From: Lachnospiraceae bacterium
GTDB lineage: Bacteria > Bacillota > Clostridia > Lachnospirales > Lachnospiraceae
Assembly: GCA_024680675.1 (NCBI GenBank)
Contig: JAILBX010000091.1
Span: 1 to 32,504, forward strand
DNA: 32,504 bases
Reading direction: 5' to 3'
Numbering within the stretch: position 1 is the first letter of the stretch; the number at the start of each line of letters is the position of its first letter. The notes below the pieces were generated by a model that was given only the letters and a program-made list of their open reading frames with translations, did not search any database and had not been told where the DNA came from. Both the position numbers and the translations under genes were made by a program. Below are positions 15,943 to 27,643 of the stretch, piece by piece.

Positions 15943-16356
15943 TTAAATCTTTGCCACCTTAACAGGAATATCCCCTTCTCCGGCAAGCTCAACGCTAAAG
16001 CTGAGTTTTCCTCCCAGATTAGTCTTCATCTTAACAGCCTGTCTGTCACCCACATAGATCTCATATTCAGTATCTTCCATAAGACCAAGAGTGATCTGTG
16101 AATCCTCATTACCTGAAACAGAAAACTCCACGCCCTCCTTGGATGCCTTAAATCCTATAACTGACGTTCCTGGTTCAGACTCATATACAAATAATCCGTC
16201 TCTTTCAAGCTTTGTCAGCTCATTAAAGGTCTTCACCTTGTAAAGATTACCATTATTCTCATAGTCCTCGATCTTTTTCTTGGCGCTGAGCTCATAATCA
16301 CCAAAGCTGAGTGCTCCGTCACTTTCTGTCCTTATCAATTCCTTAACCCTTGACAT
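15943..16356 (-). CDS. Conserved protein of unknown function between clpC and radA
   Basis: A 137-residue soluble protein, no signal peptide or membrane segment. Upstream in-frame codons add a Lys/Arg-rich stretch, but AGGAGGG 8 nt before the ATG at 16354-16356 makes MSRVKELIR the real start. The chain opens with ESDGALSFGDYEL and then looks beta-rich (alternating hydrophobic residues, ending SFSVELAGEGDIPVKVAKI), suggesting a small beta-sandwich. From memory, short proteins like this in Lachnospiraceae are sometimes labelled 'endosialidase', but at this size I see no sialidase Asp-boxes and do not accept that function. Position between clpC and radA hints at a link to protein quality control or DNA repair; that is inference. 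Confidence 0.75.
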   Translation of the reverse strand: MSRVKELIRTESDGALSFGDYELSAKKKIEDYENNGNLYKVKTFNELTKLERDGLFVYESEPGTSVIGFKASKEGVEFSVSGNEDSQITLGLMEDTEYEIYVGDRQAVKMKTNLGGKLSFSVELAGEGDIPVKVAKI

Positions 16357-16418
16357 GCTTACTACCCTCCTCTTTTTTACTCTTCCTCTTTTTTTGTTAT
16401 TGACCATATTGGTCTGTA

Positions 16419-18875
16419 TCAACCGGCTAAAATCCTCATTTCTCCCTTTGAGAAGGAAACAGTAGCCTCCTTCGCATCCTTAAGCTCCCCTGAAAGAACC
16501 GCCTCCGCCAAAGGATCCTCTATCATGGTCTGCACCGCTCTTCTCAAGGGTCTTGCGCCATACTTTTTGTCCGTTCCCTTTTCAATGACATGCTTCTTTG
16601 CTCCCTCCGTTACCTTAAGACTGATGTTCAGCTCATCATACATCCTCTTTGCAAGCTGATCCGTCATTATTGTAACGATCTTCTTCATATCATTCTCATT
16701 AAGGGATCTGAATACTATGGTTTCATCTATCCTGTTTAAGAATTCCGGTCTGAAGAGCTTCTTGACCTCTTCCATAACCGCTTTTTTCATATCGTCATGA
16801 TCCTTCTTCTCACTGCTGTCAGTGATAAAGCCGAGTTTTTTAGGCTCCATGATACGTCCCGCCCCGGCATTTGAGGTCATTATTATAACACAGTTTTTAA
16901 AGCTGACCTTTCTGCCATTTGAATCAGTGATATGACCATCATCCAAAACCTGTAGCAATATGTTAAAGACATCGGGATGAGCCTTCTCTATTTCATCAAA
17001 AAGCACTACGGAATAGGGATTTCTTCTGACCTTTTCCGACAGCTGTCCTCCCTCCTCATAGCCCACATAGCCCGGAGGGGAGCCTATCATCTTCGAGACG
17101 GTATGTTTTTCCATGTATTCGGACATATCCACCCTTATAAGAGCATCCTCAGTCCCAAAGAGCACTTCGGTCAATGCCTTTGACAACTCCGTCTTTCCCA
17201 CTCCTGTAGGCCCCAGGAACAGGAATGACCCAATCGGTCGATTCTTTTCCTTCAGACCGACTCTTCCTCTCTTTATAGCTCTTGTAACAGCGCTTATGGC
17301 TTCTTCCTGTCCTATTACCCTCTTTCTTATTTCTTTCTCCATTTTAAGAAGCTTTGAGCTTTCTGCCTCTTCTATTCTCTTAAGAGGGATCTTTGTCCAT
17401 TCTGATACCACATCTGCAATATCTTCTTTATTTACCTCTAAAGCCCTGCTCTCTGTTTTCTGCTTTCGCTTTATCTTTTTATAATGTTCCTTCTTAAAGG
17501 CATCATGCTCTCTCACAAGCTCTGCATAGTCCTCAGTCCTGCCTTCTCTGACAGCAATTTCCTTCTTTTCCTCAAACTCCCTGGATCTTTCATCGAAGTC
17601 ATCACCTATCCTGACCTTTTGATATATGGAAAGCCTTACCTTTGCAGAAGCTTCGTCCAAAAGGTCTATAGCCTTATCGGGAAGAAATCTGTCAGTAATA
17701 TACCTTGAGGAAAGCTTCACACAGGCCTCTACAGCTTCATCACTTATCTTAACCCCATGATGTTTTTCATAATTAGCTCTTATTCCCTTAAGTATATTTA
17801 TGGAATCCTCTTCGGTGGGTTCACTTACGGCGATCTTTTGAAATCTTCTTTCAAGAGCTGCATCCTTCTCGATATACTTCCTGTACTCATCAAAGGTTGT
17901 TGCCCCTATAAGCTGGATCTCTCCCCTTGCCAGTGAAGGCTTTAAAATGTTTGAAGCATCTATCTTACCCTCTGAACTTCCGGCGCCTATTATAGTATGG
18001 ACCTCATCAATGAAGAGAATGATGTTACCAGCGTTTATAACTTCTTTTATAACATTCTTTATTCTCTCTTCAAATTCTCCTCTGTACTTGCTTCCTGCCA
18101 CCATGGCGGACAGATCAAGAGTCAATAGTCTCTTGCCTAAAAGTAAGCCCGGAACATCCCCCGCTACAATCCTTAAAGCAAGACCCTCTACGATAGCAGT
18201 CTTTCCTACTCCCGGTTCTCCGACTAGACATGGATTGTTCTTGGTACGTCTGCTTAAGGTTTGAATGATCCTTTGTATCTCAGACTCTCTTCCGATAACC
18301 GGATCCAGCTTTCCTTCCCTGGCTAACTGCGTTATATCCCTGCTGTAGGAATCCACAGACATGCCTTCCTCTTCTTCCTGTCCGTACTTCTTCTGGTTAA
18401 GCCTTGTATTCTGGATCTCATCCTTATGCTTTGAAATATCCTCACCCATAGAAACTATTACATCAAGGTAAAGCTTCTGAAGGTTGATCCCCAAAGTATT
18501 TATAAGTCTTACCGCCAGATTATCCAGATCCCTTATTATGGCGATAAGAATATGTTCGGTCCCTATTTCCTTTGCCTTGAAAGAATCTGCGACCTCATTT
18601 GAATACTCAAAAATATACTGAAGCTTTGGAGTATAGCCGTCCCTTTCCTTTATATCCACAAAATTATCTATGGCTATCTGATCCTTGATAAGCTGTATTA
18701 TATCCTGGGTCTTGGCCCCGTTATCCTTAAGGACTCTGGCGGCCACACCCTCTCCCTCATCAATGAGTCCCAGGAGAAGATGTTCTGTGCCCACATAACC
18801 GTGTCCCAGTTTTTTTGAGTATTTTTCTCCTATAGATATAGCTTTTTTTGATCTTTCATTAAACTTTAGTGACAT
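16419..18875 (-). CDS. clpC: ATP-dependent Clp protease ATP-binding subunit ClpC
   Basis: Hexameric AAA+ unfoldase that feeds substrates to ClpP. The 818 residues show two Clp_N repeats (about 1-145), first AAA+ module with Walker A GEPGVGKT (219-226) and Walker B ILFIDE (286-291), a short UVR-like middle domain (about 425-475) as in ClpC and not the long ClpB coiled coil, and a second module with GPTGVGKT (555-562). The ClpP-docking loop is LGF (681-683), so partnership with ClpP is expected. AAGGAG lies about 13 nt before ATG. Unlike Bacillus, no ctsR, mcsA or mcsB precedes it and I see no full CtsR or CIRCE operator; it lies 21 nt after the Tyr-repeat membrane protein gene. Confidence 0.96.
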   Translation of the reverse strand: MSLKFNERSKKAISIGEKYSKKLGHGYVGTEHLLLGLIDEGEGVAARVLKDNGAKTQDIIQLIKDQIAIDNFVDIKERDGYTPKLQYIFEYSNEVADSFKAKEIGTEHILIAIIRDLDNLAVRLINTLGINLQKLYLDVIVSMGEDISKHKDEIQNTRLNQKKYGQEEEEGMSVDSYSRDITQLAREGKLDPVIGRESEIQRIIQTLSRRTKNNPCLVGEPGVGKTAIVEGLALRIVAGDVPGLLLGKRLLTLDLSAMVAGSKYRGEFEERIKNVIKEVINAGNIILFIDEVHTIIGAGSSEGKIDASNILKPSLARGEIQLIGATTFDEYRKYIEKDAALERRFQKIAVSEPTEEDSINILKGIRANYEKHHGVKISDEAVEACVKLSSRYITDRFLPDKAIDLLDEASAKVRLSIYQKVRIGDDFDERSREFEEKKEIAVREGRTEDYAELVREHDAFKKEHYKKIKRKQKTESRALEVNKEDIADVVSEWTKIPLKRIEEAESSKLLKMEKEIRKRVIGQEEAISAVTRAIKRGRVGLKEKNRPIGSFLFLGPTGVGKTELSKALTEVLFGTEDALIRVDMSEYMEKHTVSKMIGSPPGYVGYEEGGQLSEKVRRNPYSVVLFDEIEKAHPDVFNILLQVLDDGHITDSNGRKVSFKNCVIIMTSNAGAGRIMEPKKLGFITDSSEKKDHDDMKKAVMEEVKKLFRPEFLNRIDETIVFRSLNENDMKKIVTIMTDQLAKRMYDELNISLKVTEGAKKHVIEKGTDKKYGARPLRRAVQTMIEDPLAEAVLSGELKDAKEATVSFSKGEMRILAG

Positions 18876-18896
18876 TAAAAGTTAATTCTCCTTAGT

Positions 18897-21554
18897 TCAT
18901 TCATCGCCTGTGTTTAAAAACTCAAACTCAAAATCATCATCAGCTTCAAGATTTACGGTATCTGAACTTACAGGACTGGATTTTGGAGGCAGTCCTCCAA
19001 GGTATCCCTGGTTTTGAAAACCATAGTTATTCTGATCATCCGAATAGCTGTTATCAAATCTTATACTATGACCTCCTGTAATGGAGCTCTGACCTCCCGG
19101 TCCGGCTGAACCACCATATTGAAAGGCCGAATACTGATCATTGCCGTATCCGCCGTTCTGACCTCCATAGCTCGCGGATCCGTAACCCTGACTGTCATAG
19201 CCCTGTCTTCCATAGCCCTGATCGGCATAGCCCTGTCCTCCGTACTGGGAGCCTCCGTAGCCCTGGCTTCCATAACTCTGGCCTCCATAGCTCTGGCCTC
19301 CATAGCCTTGACTTCCATAGCCCTGATTATCATAGCTCTGACTTCCATAGCCCTGTCCCTGATAGCTTTGATTACCATAATCCTGATTTCCGTAGCTGAA
19401 CTGACTTGTATCATAAATATCAGAATTATACTTTCTTCCTCCATACTGCTCATTGTAGGGATCAGGCTGGTAGGCGCCGGTTCCGAACATGGCCCCTGTA
19501 TCATAGCCATCCGTCTGGCGCTGCTCCGATGCAAGCTGAGCTTCTCTTCTCCGATTTCTTTCTTCCTGCTGTTTTAAAAGCTCATCCCTCTTCTTTTCAA
19601 GCTCCTTTATTCTCCTTTCCTGCTCTTCAAGGGCGGCCTTCTTCTTTTCTTCCTCTTCTCTCTTTTGTCTCTTTATCTCTCTTTCTTTCTCAAGTTCTTC
19701 TTCTGAGGCTTCCTCTACTGTCTTCTTAGAGACCTTTGTTTCCTCTTGAGATCTGTTAAGGGCTTCCTCTTCCTCTTCTCTGCGCCTTGCTTCTCTTATG
19801 GCAAAGTCTCTCTCTGTATCCTTAGCACCGGTCTTCTTTATATTCAGCTCTCTTTCAGATCTCTGCATTTCCTCCCGGTCCTTGGATATAACAGCTTCCC
19901 TTTCTCTTGCCAGGGCAAACTCGATCTCCTCAGTGCTGATCTCATCTTTATCCTCTTTTACCGGTTTTTTCAACTCGGGCTTTTCCTTATCACCCTCCGC
20001 TAAGGCTTTTTCAATTCCTCTTACATCCCTTAGATTCCTTAAATCTCTCTTTTCCTTTACTGCTCTTACATCAACTTCCTCTTCCCTTCTTCTTTGGGAT
20101 TCCTTAGGCTCTTCATCCCCTCTCTCCTGCAATCTGCTGAGATTCGGATCCTTTAAAACAGGCTTTTTAGCCTGGGCTGCCATAGCATCTCTTTCGGGCG
20201 GAAGCTTTCCTGATCCGGCTCTTTCCCCTGTTTCCATATCATTGTCTTCTCTGTATTTCTCAGAAGCCTTACTTACATCACTTCCGGTGGGACGCCTTGT
20301 ATCATTACTGTCCTTCATGGCTGTTCCAAGAGCTTCAAAATCCAAAGACATGGACTCTTCTTCCTTTTGATCCCTTTTCTTTTTCTTTTTATCTTTGGCA
20401 GTACTTCTTGGATCAAATATATCCTTTTCGTTTGGCTCCTTACCTTTATGCCTGGCCTTGGGTTTTTCGGGAAGCTCCTCTCTATCATCCTCTTCAGAGC
20501 TTTTGTTTTTACCCTTCTCTGAATAATATTCATCCTCATCTATATACTCATAGCTCTGATAGTCCTTTAATTTTATAAGAGAAACTATCATTATGATAAG
20601 GAAGATCAAAAGAAGAAGGAATAAAACGCCAACCACTATATAGACCCATACAGGCAGATCCATGATGCCAAGCTCTGACCCTTTGCTGCCTGATGAAGCT
20701 CCCTGGCCTGAAGCAATCTGTAAAAACCTCTGATAAGTCCCTTCCTTCTGGTCATACTGGTAAAAGCCCTTTTCTCCTTGTGAGTTCATTGCATATAGCA
20801 AAAAGAAATCTGATGGAGACGGAGCATCTGAAGCCGGTGCAGCCCCTGCATCCCCACCGGCAGCAGCTGTTGAAGAATCTCCTCCTGCCACGGCATCTGA
20901 TCTCATATATGCCTCGAGATTTTGTCCGTTCCATTGAAGAGTAGCCTTAATATATCCGGCAGGAGCCTCAATGCTTTCATCAGCCTTAAGTATGATTATA
21001 TATTTTCCATTTCCTCCATCCACTATCCTGAAATCTGTCAGCTCCGGATTAACTCCGTCATAGAGCTTAAAAGATCCGTTTCCTCCACTGCTGTCTGTGG
21101 TGTAAAGAATAGTGATATCCGCAAAATCAAATTTTCCGCATTCACAATTGATCCCCTGGTAGGAGGTAATGTCCTTATGAAAAGAAACCGGCAGATATTC
21201 CTCCGGAAAGACCGAGGAAACAAAAATGCTGCTGTCTAATGTCGGTATTGTCTGGGCCTCCACTCCGCCAGCTGCGCTTCCTGCCGCCATGGCTGTTGTG
21301 TCTGCCCCGGCAGCGGCGGCTCCTTCTGCCCCGGCAGCTGCTCCCTCAGCGGCGGCTCCTTCTGCCCCGGCAGCTGCTCCCTCTGCTGCAGCTCCTTCTG
21401 CCCCGGCTCCATCCTGAGCGGCTTCTCCCTCTGTGTTTTTCGCACCCTCTGCAGCCTGACCTCCATCTACGGCATATACAGGCATAAATGCAGTAACCGA
21501 AAAAGTCAAAGTGAGTGCTATAACACTCAAAATATTTCTTACCCTACTGCCCAT
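18897..21554 (-). CDS. Single-pass membrane protein with a cytosolic coiled coil and a Tyr/Gly/Gln repeat (FUS-like) low-complexity tail
   Basis: Unrecognised 885-residue protein; start chosen at MGSRV because AAGGAG lies 6 nt upstream. Visible layout: signal peptide (1-28, ending near VYA); Ala/Gly/Glu repeat (about 43-85); an extracellular domain (about 100-220) with a CxC pair; one transmembrane helix (about 300-328); a long charged Lys/Glu/Arg cytosolic region, probably helical coiled coil from about 545 to 675; a Tyr/Gly/Gln/Ser domain (about 715-815) with 15 unbroken five-residue units such as YGSQG and YGGQS; and an acidic end. The tail resembles the low-complexity domains of FUS/EWS proteins that form condensates in eukaryotes. 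It lies between purD (38-nt gap) and clpC (21-nt gap). No function is claimed; scaffold, envelope sensor or ClpC adaptor are guesses. Confidence 0.85.
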   Translation of the reverse strand: MGSRVRNILSVIALTLTFSVTAFMPVYAVDGGQAAEGAKNTEGEAAQDGAGAEGAAAEGAAAGAEGAAAEGAAAGAEGAAAAGADTTAMAAGSAAGGVEAQTIPTLDSSIFVSSVFPEEYLPVSFHKDITSYQGINCECGKFDFADITILYTTDSSGGNGSFKLYDGVNPELTDFRIVDGGNGKYIIILKADESIEAPAGYIKATLQWNGQNLEAYMRSDAVAGGDSSTAAAGGDAGAAPASDAPSPSDFFLLYAMNSQGEKGFYQYDQKEGTYQRFLQIASGQGASSGSKGSELGIMDLPVWVYIVVGVLFLLLLIFLIIMIVSLIKLKDYQSYEYIDEDEYYSEKGKNKSSEEDDREELPEKPKARHKGKEPNEKDIFDPRSTAKDKKKKKRDQKEEESMSLDFEALGTAMKDSNDTRRPTGSDVSKASEKYREDNDMETGERAGSGKLPPERDAMAAQAKKPVLKDPNLSRLQERGDEEPKESQRRREEEVDVRAVKEKRDLRNLRDVRGIEKALAEGDKEKPELKKPVKEDKDEISTEEIEFALAREREAVISKDREEMQRSERELNIKKTGAKDTERDFAIREARRREEEEEALNRSQEETKVSKKTVEEASEEELEKEREIKRQKREEEEKKKAALEEQERRIKELEKKRDELLKQQEERNRRREAQLASEQRQTDGYDTGAMFGTGAYQPDPYNEQYGGRKYNSDIYDTSQFSYGNQDYGNQSYQGQGYGSQSYDNQGYGSQGYGGQSYGGQSYGSQGYGGSQYGGQGYADQGYGRQGYDSQGYGSASYGGQNGGYGNDQYSAFQYGGSAGPGGQSSITGGHSIRFDNSYSDDQNNYGFQNQGYLGGLPPKSSPVSSDTVNLEADDDFEFEFLNTGDE
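19155..19379 (-). repeat. Fifteen tandem 15-bp units encoding Tyr-x-x-x-x pentapeptides
   Basis: Within the membrane-protein gene, residues 726-800 are fifteen consecutive pentads each starting with Tyr, mostly Y-[GD]-[GSN]-Q-[GS]. At DNA level the 15-bp units are similar but not identical (recurring plus-strand text CCATAGCCCTG and CCATAGCTCTG), so the array is diverged and presumably kept by selection on the protein. Confidence 0.95.
21312..21383 (-). repeat. Perfect 36-bp tandem duplication in the Ala/Gly/Glu segment
   Basis: Two identical 36-bp copies (21312-21347 and 21348-21383) encode the 12-residue unit EGAAAGAEGAAA; partial copies flank them. Because copies are exact, the array may change length by slippage. 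The unit is a multiple of three, so copy changes keep the frame and alter only the spacer behind the signal peptide. Confidence 0.9.
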
Positions 21555-21592
21555 CTTTTCTCCTTTCATCCCGGTAAAGCAGCTTATTAAGG

Positions 21593-22873
21593 CTATCGAT
21601 ATATGTCATCTATCGCTTTACCGATATCCTTTCTGCAATATTTATTTTCGAAATTGACCCATTCGGTCGCCTTGTAAGCATTTTCCCTTGCCTTTTTTAA
21701 ATCCTGGCCAAGAGCTGTAATACCAAGCACTCTTCCCCCATTTGTAACTATTTTTCCATCCTTCTCCTTACTGCCGGCGTGGAAGCAGTAATAGCCTTCC
21801 CGGTCATCAAAATTTTCCAGCCCCTTTATCTCGAAGCCCTTCTCATAGCTTAGGGGATAACCCTTTGAAGCCAGTACCACGCATACACAGGCCTCATCCT
21901 TAAAGTCAAGCGTGATCTTATCCAGATTGCCGTCAATACAGGCCTCCATAACATCAACGATGTCATTATTCATCCTGGGAAGTACCACCTGGGCTTCCGG
22001 ATCTCCGAATCTGGCATTATACTCAAGTACCTTTGGACCTGCCTCTGTAAGCATGAGTCCAAAAAAGATTATTCCCTTAAACTCTCTTCCTTCCTTTGCC
22101 ATAGCTTCCACGGTAGGCTCAAAAATATACTCTTTACAGTATCTGTCTATTTCATCCGTATAAAAGGGACTGGGTGAAAAGGTTCCCATTCCGCCTGTAT
22201 TGAGTCCTGTATCTCCATCCCCCGCTCTCTTATGATCCTGAGCAGAGGCCATAGGCTTTATGGTCTTTCCATCAACAAAAGAAAGAACCGAGACCTCCCG
22301 TCCTGTCATAAACTCCTCTATCACAAGCTTATTTCCGGCATCTCCGAACTTCTTATCAAGCATTATCTCCTTTACGCCTTCCTTAGCTTCCGAAAGATCA
22401 TTACATATAAGAACGCCCTTCCCCAAGGCAAGACCGTCTGCCTTTAAAACGATAGGAAATGTCCGGTTCTTTTCAAGATACTCTACGGCTTCCTCCGGAT
22501 TTTCAAAGGTTTCATAGTCTGCGGTAGGTATATTGTACTTCTTCATCAATTCCTTCGAAAAAGCCTTGCTTCCTTCCAATATTGCTGCCTTCTTTTTGGG
22601 TCCGAAGCTTCTTATTCCCTTATCCCATAAAAAATCCGCCAATCCGGCAACCAGTGGATCATCAGGTCCTATAACCACCATATCCACCTTTTTCTCCAGG
22701 GCATATCCGGCTATTCCTTCAAAATCCATTACAGATATATTCTCGCATTCAGCCAGCTTGGATATGCCTGCATTCCCCGGAAGGCAGTATATCTTATCCA
22801 CTCTTTTGCTTTCGCTAATCTTTTTTACCAGCGCATGCTCTCTTCCGCCGGATCCTACCACAAGAATCTTCAT
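21593..22873 (-). CDS. purD: Phosphoribosylamine-glycine ligase (GAR synthetase)
   Basis: Second step of purine synthesis: joins glycine to phosphoribosylamine with ATP. The 426-residue ATP-grasp enzyme opens with KILVVGSGGREHAL (N-domain), and has VVIGPDDPLVAGLAD, the ATP-grasp stretch PIVLKADGLALGKGV, NTGGMGTFSP and the metal/ATP-binding LEYNARFGDPEAQV. GGAAAATATAAAA precedes the ATG. It follows purN with a 37-nt gap and precedes the Tyr-repeat membrane protein gene. Confidence 0.98.
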   Translation of the reverse strand: MKILVVGSGGREHALVKKISESKRVDKIYCLPGNAGISKLAECENISVMDFEGIAGYALEKKVDMVVIGPDDPLVAGLADFLWDKGIRSFGPKKKAAILEGSKAFSKELMKKYNIPTADYETFENPEEAVEYLEKNRTFPIVLKADGLALGKGVLICNDLSEAKEGVKEIMLDKKFGDAGNKLVIEEFMTGREVSVLSFVDGKTIKPMASAQDHKRAGDGDTGLNTGGMGTFSPSPFYTDEIDRYCKEYIFEPTVEAMAKEGREFKGIIFFGLMLTEAGPKVLEYNARFGDPEAQVVLPRMNNDIVDVMEACIDGNLDKITLDFKDEACVCVVLASKGYPLSYEKGFEIKGLENFDDREGYYCFHAGSKEKDGKIVTNGGRVLGITALGQDLKKARENAYKATEWVNFENKYCRKDIGKAIDDIYR

Positions 22874-25235: not shown

Positions 25236-27308
25236 CTATGATAAAAGGGGAACATTTAACTCCGACAATCCATCAAGGACAAAAAGTCCGTCTTTGATTA
25301 TATCTGTCCCTTCTCCCTTTGCATTTATGGCAGTTATAAGGCCCAGCTCATGGTAGGGAATGGTAATGTCCGTATGGCAGTAAAAATAAGCCTCTTCAGG
25401 TTTTTCTTTTCGTTTTTCCGAAACAGAGTTATATTTTGCGACTATTTCCTTTCCATCGGGGTTGAAAACTCTGACGTCTTCTTCATGACTGTAACAGGTA
25501 TCTCCTACGGCAAAATGAGGACCTGTTTTTTCCCCTATAAGAATGGGCAGCTTTCTGCCTATATCATAATCTCTTGACATCCTGTAGGCATAGGTATTGG
25601 TTCCTATGGCAAACTCACCCAAAGGAAGGGTCTTATGGTTATAGAGTATATTTTCTTCGATATATTTTCTGTTTTCTTCCTCATTATCAAAATTTCCGCA
25701 GGAATAATCAACGATCATACCATCCTCGAAACGTATACGAAGATCCTTGAACAGAAGCTCGTTAAGGTATACCTGGCTCACATGCAGTAAACCTCTTGTC
25801 CCCTCCAGAAGCGGGGATGTAAAAACCTCTCCCAGAGGTATGTTTACATCTGCAACACAGTTTTCAAAAATGCTTTCTTTTAAAGGATCACCAAGCTTAA
25901 AAAGCTCCACAGTCATATCCGTTTCATTGCCTGCATCCTTTCTTCCCAGGATATGAACTCTTTCTGCCTTATCCAAAACATCTATTATAAGCTGCTGCAT
26001 TTTTTCATACTTTTTGTAATCCAGAGTATTCACCTTAATGGTTTCCCTGAATATAGCCTCAAAATCCTTTCCTATCTCCGGAACGGGATAGGCGATTATG
26101 GTAAAGCTTCTTTCTTCTCTCTTGATGTAATTATTCGTCAGCCTTCCGGCCTTGTCGGTATAATCAACCGAAAGCTTCCTTTGTTTTTCCGACAGTCTTA
26201 ATGAATTATCTGACGATTCCGGATCAAAGGGTTCTTCTCCAAAGGTTTCCATTACTGCAGGTCCTGCAAAACCTGCTGCCAGCTCTTTGTTATCCTCATA
26301 TACGGATTTCATTACATCCAGCTTTCTCTGAATAAACTCCTGGTCAAGGAAAAGAGCATTATCCTCTCTGTGGTCGTAATCATACTGTCTGTTTGGAACA
26401 GCTCCATAGTAGCCCGTTCGATTATACCCGTTTTTATTTACTGTAAAGCTCGGGTTTCTATATAATATCGTATGTAATCCCATATCTTCAAACTGCTTGA
26501 TCGCCTCTCTGATTATCAGCTCAAAGCCCAGATTATATCGGATGTTAACACTCGTTTTTTTATTCAGGTCTTTTCCGCTTTTAACAAATCCCACCCTGTA
26601 TCCTTCAGTAAATGTTCTGGCCATAGCTTCTATATCTTCCTTTTTCTGTAAGCTAAGGAATTTACTGATCTCTATCTCATTATCAGATATATATTCTCCA
26701 AAATCATAAAGATATCTCTGATCCTTCAGATCTGCTTTCTTAATGATATTAAATGCAAAATCCCTCTTGTAGGAAATCTGATCCAATATCCTGTCCTCCA
26801 TAAGGATGTCAAGGTTATCCCTTTGAAACCAGTACAGAGCATCATGAACCTGCAGAGGATCCGGCTGCTTTTCATCCATAAAAGCATAGGAGAATATATT
26901 ATATATCTCTATGAAAAGTTCCTGATATATGGTTATTATCTCCACCCTTTTCTCAAAAGCGCAGGGGATAAGTCCTCTAAGCTCAGAATAGAGAAAGCAA
27001 AGATACTGTCCAAGCTTTGGATCGCATTTTTCTTTCTCTGTTAGTCTGAACATATGATCCGGATTTCCATAAGAATTCTCATAATTCTCAGGAAGTATAT
27101 CCTTATAGAGCCTTTGGTTCAGCTTTTTTGCCGCCTCCATATCAAGTTTACATAACTCTTCATTTTCAGCCATTTTCAAGGTCAGCTGAATAAGAGTCAT
27201 AAACTCTGCAAGCTCCTTAAAATAGTCTTTAAATGCCATATCGGGAATATATTCATTTGCTATCTCAGCTATTCTTTCTGTGGATAAAGTGTATCTCTCA
27301 TTATTCAT
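25236..27308 (-). CDS. M29-family (thermophilic-type) metallo-aminopeptidase with a long N-terminal extension
   Basis: Metal-dependent aminopeptidase of family M29 (AmpS/AmpT type), presumably cytosolic and removing N-terminal residues from peptides. Of 690 residues, the C-terminal part carries the ligand pattern of the family: E494 (PLGEVFTSP), E565 (PLGEFAIGTNT), H598 (TGPHFAVGDTCY), H645 and D647 (CHTDIT). Classical AmpS/AmpT have about 410 residues; the first ~300 here have no recognised domain and look helical, though long forms like this occur in Clostridia. GGGGGG 7 nt before the ATG decides the start. It begins 2 nt after the preceding gene, at the end of the pyrF-pyrE unit; no terminator is evident before the purE promoter. 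Confidence 0.85.
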   Translation of the reverse strand: MNNERYTLSTERIAEIANEYIPDMAFKDYFKELAEFMTLIQLTLKMAENEELCKLDMEAAKKLNQRLYKDILPENYENSYGNPDHMFRLTEKEKCDPKLGQYLCFLYSELRGLIPCAFEKRVEIITIYQELFIEIYNIFSYAFMDEKQPDPLQVHDALYWFQRDNLDILMEDRILDQISYKRDFAFNIIKKADLKDQRYLYDFGEYISDNEIEISKFLSLQKKEDIEAMARTFTEGYRVGFVKSGKDLNKKTSVNIRYNLGFELIIREAIKQFEDMGLHTILYRNPSFTVNKNGYNRTGYYGAVPNRQYDYDHREDNALFLDQEFIQRKLDVMKSVYEDNKELAAGFAGPAVMETFGEEPFDPESSDNSLRLSEKQRKLSVDYTDKAGRLTNNYIKREERSFTIIAYPVPEIGKDFEAIFRETIKVNTLDYKKYEKMQQLIIDVLDKAERVHILGRKDAGNETDMTVELFKLGDPLKESIFENCVADVNIPLGEVFTSPLLEGTRGLLHVSQVYLNELLFKDLRIRFEDGMIVDYSCGNFDNEEENRKYIEENILYNHKTLPLGEFAIGTNTYAYRMSRDYDIGRKLPILIGEKTGPHFAVGDTCYSHEEDVRVFNPDGKEIVAKYNSVSEKRKEKPEEAYFYCHTDITIPYHELGLITAINAKGEGTDIIKDGLFVLDGLSELNVPLLS

Positions 27309-27310
27309 TA

Positions 27311-27643
27311 TCAAGCCCCCCATATTATTATAAGTATCCAGATAACAATATCTGTAATATTCAAAGCAAGTGCAGTGTTCGGCATCCAGGTATAAATATC
27401 CCTCTCCTTAAGGCTTACCAGGGCAGCGGCAATTCCCGTCAGGTTTGAAAGAAGGGCAAATAATCCGACTCCTCCAAAATGAATGTCCACATTTCCCTTA
27501 CTGTAATAGGAAACCAGCACAGCACCTGCAAATGAGACAAAAGAAAATAAAGCAAGAAAAAGAGACAATATACCCGTAAATGAATAATGTCTTGTGGTAA
27601 ACATAAAACTCTTTTTCTTTTTTATCTTTTTGGGTCTAGGCAT
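27311..27643 (-). CDS. Small membrane protein of unknown function (possibly DUF6142-like)
   Basis: A 110-residue protein with a strongly basic start (MPRPKKIKKKKSF) and three hydrophobic segments at about 22-46, 56-76 and 88-109, so probably a three-helix inner-membrane protein with its N-terminus in the cytosol. It resembles small membrane proteins of Lachnospiraceae that I recall as DUF6142, but this is memory, not a search. It overlaps pyrE by 8 nt and ends 2 nt before the aminopeptidase, so it is translated with the pyrimidine genes. No function is assigned. Confidence 0.75.
   Translation of the reverse strand: MPRPKKIKKKKSFMFTTRHYSFTGILSLFLALFSFVSFAGAVLVSYYSKGNVDIHFGGVGLFALLSNLTGIAAALVSLKERDIYTWMPNTALALNITDIVIWILIIIWGA

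Follow-up and report, generated by a model that had tools for sequence, protein, structure and literature searches.

A Lachnospiraceae envelope protein family with conserved cytosolic motifs and, in one genus, a tyrosine-rich low-complexity tail

Introduction

The DNA considered here is a contig of a Lachnospiraceae bacterium, and its full stretch of 32,504 nt is referred to throughout as the window. The “focal gene” of the window lies on the minus strand, 21 nt upstream of clpC, and encodes a single-pass protein whose cytosolic arm carries a Tyr/Gly/Gln-rich tail followed by a conserved C-terminal peptide. The architecture of this protein, its predicted disorder, the conservation of its motifs, the maintenance of its tail composition and the gene neighbourhoods of its relatives were computed. 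They place it in an uncharacterised Lachnospiraceae family that has no curated model, and they are tentatively explained here by a wall-linked protein with a docking arm. Loci of relatives are designated by L-numbers and genomes by G-numbers.

Architecture of the focal protein

The gene and the segments of its product are listed below. Residue numbers follow the 890-residue reading of the gene, and 5 is to be subtracted for the 885-residue reading.

18897..21554, minus strand: focal gene, 885 residues; an alternative upstream ATG at 21569 gives 890 residues
21471..21554, minus strand: putative signal peptide, residues 6-33, recognised by eye as a hydrophobic run ending in VYA
21258..21440, minus strand: Ala/Glu/Gly-rich spacer, residues ~44-104, read from the sequence
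20700..21251, minus strand: conserved beta-rich ectodomain, residues 107-290, from the alignment, with the block FFLLYA..G..GxYxYDxxEGTYQR
20562..20651, minus strand: single transmembrane helix, residues ~307-336 by hydropathy; helix 307-340 in the AlphaFold model
20280..20345, minus strand: genus-specific motif 1, residues 409-430, LDFEALG..RRPTGS, from the genus alignment
19515..19934, minus strand: continuous charged helix of 140 residues (546-685), from AlphaFold and alignment
18999..19505, minus strand: Tyr/Gly/Gln/Ser-rich low-complexity region (LCD), residues 689-857, predicted disordered, 28 Tyr in 169 residues
19170..19394, minus strand: 15 Tyr-led pentads, residues 726-800, read from the sequence
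18912..18941, minus strand: C-terminal motif 2, residues 877-886, DDDFEFEFLN, by pattern match

The reading frame is uninterrupted and has a single match in its own genome, which is 85% complete. The start at 21554 is preferred over that at 21569 because a Shine-Dalgarno-like stretch, AAAGGAG, lies 5 nt before it. From N- to C-terminus the product consists of a putative signal peptide, the Ala/Glu/Gly-rich spacer, an ectodomain, a single membrane-spanning helix and a cytosolic arm, an order which, the spacer apart, the original prediction had proposed and which sequence, hydropathy and AlphaFold confirm. The ectodomain and transmembrane helix are modelled with a mean predicted local confidence (pLDDT) of 87.4 (AlphaFold, 43-row alignment), and the mean over the cytosolic arm is 56 (19-row alignment of arms). 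Within the arm, the helix at residues 546-685 has pLDDT values mostly between 83 and 95 in 10-residue blocks. The long charged coil of the original prediction therefore stands in part: a helix of this length is predicted, but by reading of the alignment of 19 cytosolic arms it is common to the window protein, L100 and L101 only. The Ala/Glu spacer, which had been cited together with the tail as a possible scaffolding device, is likewise present but is extracellular under the proposed topology. A tandem repeat with a 36-bp unit, at 21311-21407, encodes it and is probably recent, because its copies match at 95%.

Residues 689-857 have pLDDT values below 50 and for this reason are read as predicted disordered, in agreement with the earlier reading of a FUS-like tail on the cytosolic side. 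This region contains 13 [GS]Y[GSQ] sites, and within it 16 tyrosines at residues 726, 731 and so on to 801 form 15 consecutive intervals of 5, the unbroken ladder of pentads that had been claimed. Residues 695-890 contain 20 Tyr intervals of 5, against a shuffled mean of 2.0, and neither the 15-interval run nor the 20-interval count was met in composition-preserving shuffles (0/10,000 each). The DNA of the tail contains tandem repeats of period 15, 30 and 45 bp, whose copies are 68-72% alike. Across the 15 pentads the Tyr position has a proportion of nonsynonymous differences (pN) of 0, which is no test, because the pentads are defined by their Tyr.

The tail across relatives

C-terminal counts exclude seven of the 32 genus loci, which end within the focal gene, and genus counts of 26 comprise 25 complete relatives and the window. 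A Tyr/Gly/Gln-rich tail is present in 15 of these 26 proteins, and at the same threshold in none of 88 complete non-genus relatives, for which the highest value is 38 as against 45 per 100 residues; other relatives carry charged, acidic or Ala/Pro-rich arms where the window has its Tyr tail. The tail does not define the protein, as had been supposed, but elaborates, within the genus, on an envelope protein family of wider distribution. On a ClpC tree of 33 rows its presence requires 2 changes, a value as low as which was reached in 0/500 shuffles.

Tail length and repeat period vary among the relatives while composition is alike, at approximately 13-20% Tyr, 14-28% Gly and 11-30% Gln in 14 of the 15 tail-bearing genus proteins; for the fifteenth, L061, the automatic segment boundary ran too far. 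The repeat units are YGxQx pentads in the window, with runs of five in L111 and L116, and YDPYGQ-like units in L061, L066 and L118, while L101 shows little period. The relatives share the composition of the tail but not its period, and the 15-pentad regularity is peculiar to the window. Five pairs were hand-picked among the tail-bearing relatives for substitution analysis and a Tyr test. In the pair L108/L114 all 141 LCD columns are aligned, the ratio of nonsynonymous to synonymous change (dN/dS) is 0.10 at a proportion of synonymous differences (pS) of 0.58, and Tyr columns are kept in 25/25 cases, compared with 90/116 for other columns (p = 0.0035). These patterns suggest that the tail is maintained by selection.

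A second type of Tyr enrichment occurs in L079, L090, L095, L096 and L169, which are linked to LytR-CpsA-Psr (LCP) genes and have acidic tails with 11-13% Tyr. With the tail as query, weak matches were obtained in G008 and G018 away from the focal gene. The segments G013:C103:1-327 and G001:C36:4721-4747, which show a tail-like match and/or the C-terminal motif, are possible continuations of contig-cut focal genes.

Conserved motifs of the cytosolic arm

Two short conserved motifs bracket the variable cytosolic arm in the alignment of 19 arms. “Motif 1” follows the pattern [IVLMF]D[WF][SAET]x[MLF][EQGK], in many proteins continued by RRPxGN, and its first part occurs in 26/26 genus and 0/88 non-genus proteins. 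“Motif 2”, of the DDFEFEFLN type, occupies the final ~10 residues and is the most conserved cytosolic element. Its strict pattern is matched by the window and by 25/25 complete genus relatives, and outside the genus by 22/83 complete family proteins, with 54/83 matching a loose pattern; both motif patterns were derived from the same proteins that were scored, and the motif 2 counts are without shuffle control. In genus proteins the F-x-F core of motif 2 is located 3-7 residues from the C-terminus, and because this distance varies the motif is not a C-terminal degron of fixed register. LCP-linked relatives have C-termini of a similar acidic/aromatic type, and in the Agathobacter ruminis homologue (L165) the C-terminus belongs only to the looser acidic type.

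As a DNA pattern, which does not catch DEDFQFEF variants, motif 2 has one match in its own genome, at the focal gene. Across the genus the pattern occurs once each in 13 of 37 genomes: 6 matches are at the focal gene, 2 are on contigs possibly continuing the gene (G001, G013) and 5 are elsewhere. A backward control pattern gave 3 matches, which puts these last 5 near chance, and the idea that motif 2 serves other proteins as a general signal was rejected.

Family distribution and identity

Searches with the ectodomain gave matches in 34 of 37 genus genomes, its own included, G035 at E 9e-4 only, and none in G009, G016 or G028; G024 has a second copy of the focal gene. Matches at E <= 0.001 occur in 95 of 200 family genomes, many of them partial. 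When 295 genomes of the order were scanned with a profile, 50 had matches; the convincing ones are confined to the same family and a second family, f8, and those above about E 1e-5 cover mostly the membrane helix. The carriers are Lachnospiraceae, many of which come from metagenomes of the rumen or of ruminants; Agathobacter ruminis JK623 and an assembly of Roseburia are also among them. Two of the 95 family genomes with an ectodomain match belong to the window's genus; the non-genus sample used here covers 76 of the 93 others, mostly the better-scoring, and was extended by 6 family and 5 f8 loci from the order scan and by 3 further loci.

The focal protein matches no Pfam or NCBIfam model at cut-off, and the same is true of five relatives scanned per library, which bears out the earlier statement that no known family is matched. 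AuxB, a lipoteichoic acid stability factor (NF047418), was rejected as an identity, since the window protein scores 24.0 bits against a curated 300 bits; this sub-threshold match spans the transmembrane helix and the charged stretch 302-510, and L107 scores 29.2 bits. Some relatives have a cohesin-like domain N-terminal to the shared ectodomain, which in three of five proteins scanned is sub-threshold (PF00963, gathering cut-off 24.1 bits; L095 23.6, L084 18.5, L107 14.9), with no match in L088, L102 or the window protein. A search of solved structures with the ectodomain profile gave a best E of 0.017, and fold searches gave no clear match, the top row in one being a helix match to the transmembrane segment. 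An ectodomain of the beta-propeller kind (TolB/DPP type) was also weighed and is neither supported nor contradicted. A literature search found no paper on the family, but most subscription journals lie outside its coverage, so this absence is unproven.

Gene neighbourhood

The genes that flank the focal gene in the window are the following.

16419..18875, minus strand: clpC, 21 nt downstream of the focal gene (Clp_N, AAA_2, ClpB_D2-small)
21593..22873, minus strand: purD, the next gene upstream in the window and also in L100 and L101, the window's two closest relatives, by neighbourhood reading

The gap between the focal gene and clpC, at 18876-18896, has the 21 nt originally given and contains no terminator-like site. 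The usual order in the genus is purD, in some cases a zinc-ribbon gene, an SH3-glucosaminidase gene, the focal gene, clpC, a gene of 159 residues and radA. As had been anticipated, the adjacency to clpC is conserved: clpC lies directly downstream in the window and in 25/25 genus loci whose downstream sequence exceeds 2.5 kb. Outside the genus it does so in 14/78 loci, and clp/mcs genes (clpC or mcsA/mcsB) lie within 6 kb in 46/78. In two non-genus examples the intervening genes are of GntR, McsA-like (UVR) and McsB kinds (Pfam on one). This GntR-McsA-McsB cassette (e.g. L188, L223) is missing from the genus loci. McsB was sought with a protein query, a PF00217 result having been dropped because its controls gave no match; it was found in 0/22 genus genomes tested, and among four non-genus genomes it is present in G095, the genome of the query, and G053 and was not found in G183 or G088. 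The 159-residue gene, at 15943-16422 in the window, follows clpC in all 25 clpC-adjacent genus loci and is below every Pfam cut-off.

The original prediction had named clpC as the one neighbour of note, and this does not hold. The hydrolase usually encoded upstream is an SH3_3 protein. Its catalytic part gave matches to Autolysin E and to bifunctional autolysin, as well as one to the SagB model that stays under the cut-off. A glucosaminidase catalytic domain is encoded upstream of the focal gene in 27/32 genus and 47/83 other loci; the upstream gene is present in L067 and L068, and in the window's own genome a related glucosaminidase domain lies within a 1451-residue frame on a different contig. 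In L102 (G007) the upstream frame matching the hydrolase is interrupted by a stop. An LCP gene is nearby in 16/83 non-genus loci, and all 16 loci with LCP genes upstream form a separate clade (support 100), often among polysaccharide genes, in which clp/mcs genes lie within 6 kb in 0/14 loci with enough downstream sequence.

Proposed role and comparison with known systems

The explanation favoured here, which is tentative and falls a little short of being probable, is that the focal protein is an envelope protein linked to the wall, with a disordered arm that docks a partner and in the window self-associates under the membrane. It would be a type I single-pass protein acting together with the cell-wall machinery, with an ectodomain that would be directed toward the wall, relatives being encoded beside a secreted glucosaminidase or an LCP ligase. 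The arm would form a largely disordered tether whose conserved peptides, chiefly the C-terminal DDFEFEFLN, probably dock a cytosolic partner. Many copies in the genus have in addition a Tyr/Gly/Gln-rich stretch between motifs 1 and 2, whose tyrosines would most likely serve as weak multivalent stickers through which protein and partner may cluster under the membrane. The tether is proposed because the protein is single-pass and joins a wall-facing domain to a disordered arm that ends in a near-invariant peptide; a role in wall remodelling is suggested because the upstream neighbours, autolysin-type and LCP genes, share a link to the wall, the Clp operon being the other frequent neighbour; and self-association is the most likely contribution of the Tyr stretch because of its composition and the maintenance of that composition. 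It is possible, if rather doubtful, that the protein is a membrane-tethered bacterial counterpart of FET-type condensate domains whose terminal peptide recruits a client or enzyme, possibly ClpC. The corresponding view of the tail, that its Tyr stickers persist through composition as individual repeat units come and go, is considered just as doubtful in this form.

MapZ and ZipA are single-pass division tethers that join wall or membrane to a cytosolic partner; the focal protein is like them as a tether, but topology and motifs differ and the likeness is not based on sequence. FUS, EWS and TAF15 have the low-complexity domains that characterise the FET family, and SpmX is a membrane-anchored protein. 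Low-complexity domains of the FET kind are described as enriched in Gly/Ser/Tyr, and candidate bacterial prion-like domains as often carried by wall-related proteins (PMC4606120). Like FET domains, the window tail is predicted disordered, embeds Tyr in Gly/Ser/Gln and repeats [GS]Y[GSQ]; unlike them, it belongs to a bacterial, membrane-anchored protein, is followed by a conserved acidic/aromatic peptide, and is accompanied by no RNA-binding domain (RRM, zinc finger, RGG) that reaches the Pfam cut-off in the window protein. Rv1747 and SpmX are presented as bacterial condensate proteins in a review, which proposes that a disordered cytosolic region clusters the membrane protein Rv1747 and in whose main text the word tyrosine is absent (PMC11326607). 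Clustering of Rv1747 involves phosphothreonine-binding domains, and what is compared with the focal protein is its disordered cytosolic region. In S. aureus the membrane protein SpdC scaffolds the glucosaminidase SagB (PMC10581084). Many relatives of the focal protein are encoded next to a glucosaminidase, with which the protein may likewise work and whose catalytic part is SagB-like below cut-off, but SpdC is a multi-pass integral membrane CAAX-protease homologue whereas the focal protein is single-pass and has a long arm in the cytosol, and in the window no hydrolase gene adjoins it. SpdC-SagB may thus serve as a precedent for the outer half of the protein, and Rv1747 for the clustering of a membrane protein by a disordered region.

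Several observations weigh against a wall-linked protein with a docking, self-associating arm. Neither motif 2 pattern is matched by 27/83 non-genus proteins, and the motif is found in 0/5 of the f8 homologues (L207-L211). On the wall side, the focal gene has no hydrolase gene beside it in the window, L100 and L101; in L071, L102 and L104 the open reading frame upstream matches the SH3 half only, so that among the five nearest relatives of the window (L100-L104) only L103 has the catalytic part; and no glucosaminidase homologue was found in G017 or G018. As to the tail, 11/26 complete genus proteins lack the LCD, tails are shorter than 40 residues in 8 relatives, and the Tyr excess is significant in 1/5 pairs, the four indel-containing pairs giving p 0.37-0.43. 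The pS of LCD and ectodomain is 0.5-0.8, which is near saturation, and dN/dS is therefore rough.

Alternative explanations

If the Tyr/Gly/Gln stretch were only flexible spacing that separates the membrane from the docking peptide, with tyrosines that do not drive self-association, then the free variation of tail length and repeat period, the charged, acidic or Ala/Pro-rich arms that occupy the equivalent place in relatives, and the single pair with a significant Tyr excess would be readily accommodated. A mere spacer would not be expected to hold its Tyr content at ~13-20% in 14/15 tail-bearing genus proteins of differing period, nor to lose no Tyr in the fully aligned pair L108/L114, and this alternative is regarded as a serious but improbable one. 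Still less credence is given to neutral repeat expansion without function, which is very unlikely: tandem repeats of 15, 30 and 45 bp and the turnover of units among relatives are what it would produce, but the copies are only 68-72% alike in DNA, the frame stays open into a conserved C-terminus, dN/dS of the LCD is low in L108/L114 and the tail is retained in 15 divergent genus members. It was rejected as the main explanation on the contrast between varying periods and kept composition, the clustering of tails on the tree, the conserved C-terminus and the dN/dS value.

Alternatively, the protein could be a membrane tether or adaptor whose motifs bind ClpC or its clients and keep the unfoldase at the membrane, which is judged unlikely. 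Its principal support is that adjacency to clpC is kept in the window, L100 and L101 despite the hydrolase gene being gone, to which are added the conserved adjacency elsewhere (25/25 genus relatives, and clp/mcs genes near 46/78 non-genus loci) and the failure to find McsB, the arginine kinase, in 22/22 genus genomes, because of which ClpC in the genus may obtain clients in another way. However, LCP-linked relatives keep similar C-termini with clp/mcs genes within 6 kb in 0/14 loci, the variable F-x-F position does not fit a degron of fixed register, and the sharing of an operon does not demonstrate contact. The tyrosines might instead be a phosphorylation platform for a bacterial tyrosine (BY) kinase, as in capsule synthesis, a proposal which the Tyr density of the tails and the Tyr-rich acidic tails (up to 13%) of some LCP-linked relatives in polysaccharide clusters would favour, but which is the least credible of those considered. 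The kinase model TIGR01007 is above cut-off in 10/15 genus genomes with the tail and 8/11 without it, and in none of the tail-bearing own genome (85% complete), G017, G018, G027 and G012; the platform was rejected for this want of co-occurrence.

If tyrosine-mediated clustering under the membrane is correct, the genus offers a natural set of orthologues, some bearing a Tyr tail and some lacking it, in which the period has changed and the composition has been kept, and in which the sequence grammar of condensates and their role at the bacterial membrane could be probed; it would be an envelope condensate that arose by natural sticker-and-spacer evolution within one bacterial genus. The analysis also exposes, in a major group of gut and rumen bacteria, an envelope family without a curated model that adjoins autolysin-type, LCP and Clp-operon genes and bears a strongly conserved, unexplained C-terminal peptide.

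Other observations

Downstream of the focal gene in L207 (f8) lies a gene whose product is rhomboid-like, slightly under the cut-off. At 25236-27323 the window encodes a protein of 695 residues whose second half matches M29 aminopeptidase (PF02073, 6e-11); its gene sits within the pur/pyr cluster and is also there in many relatives.

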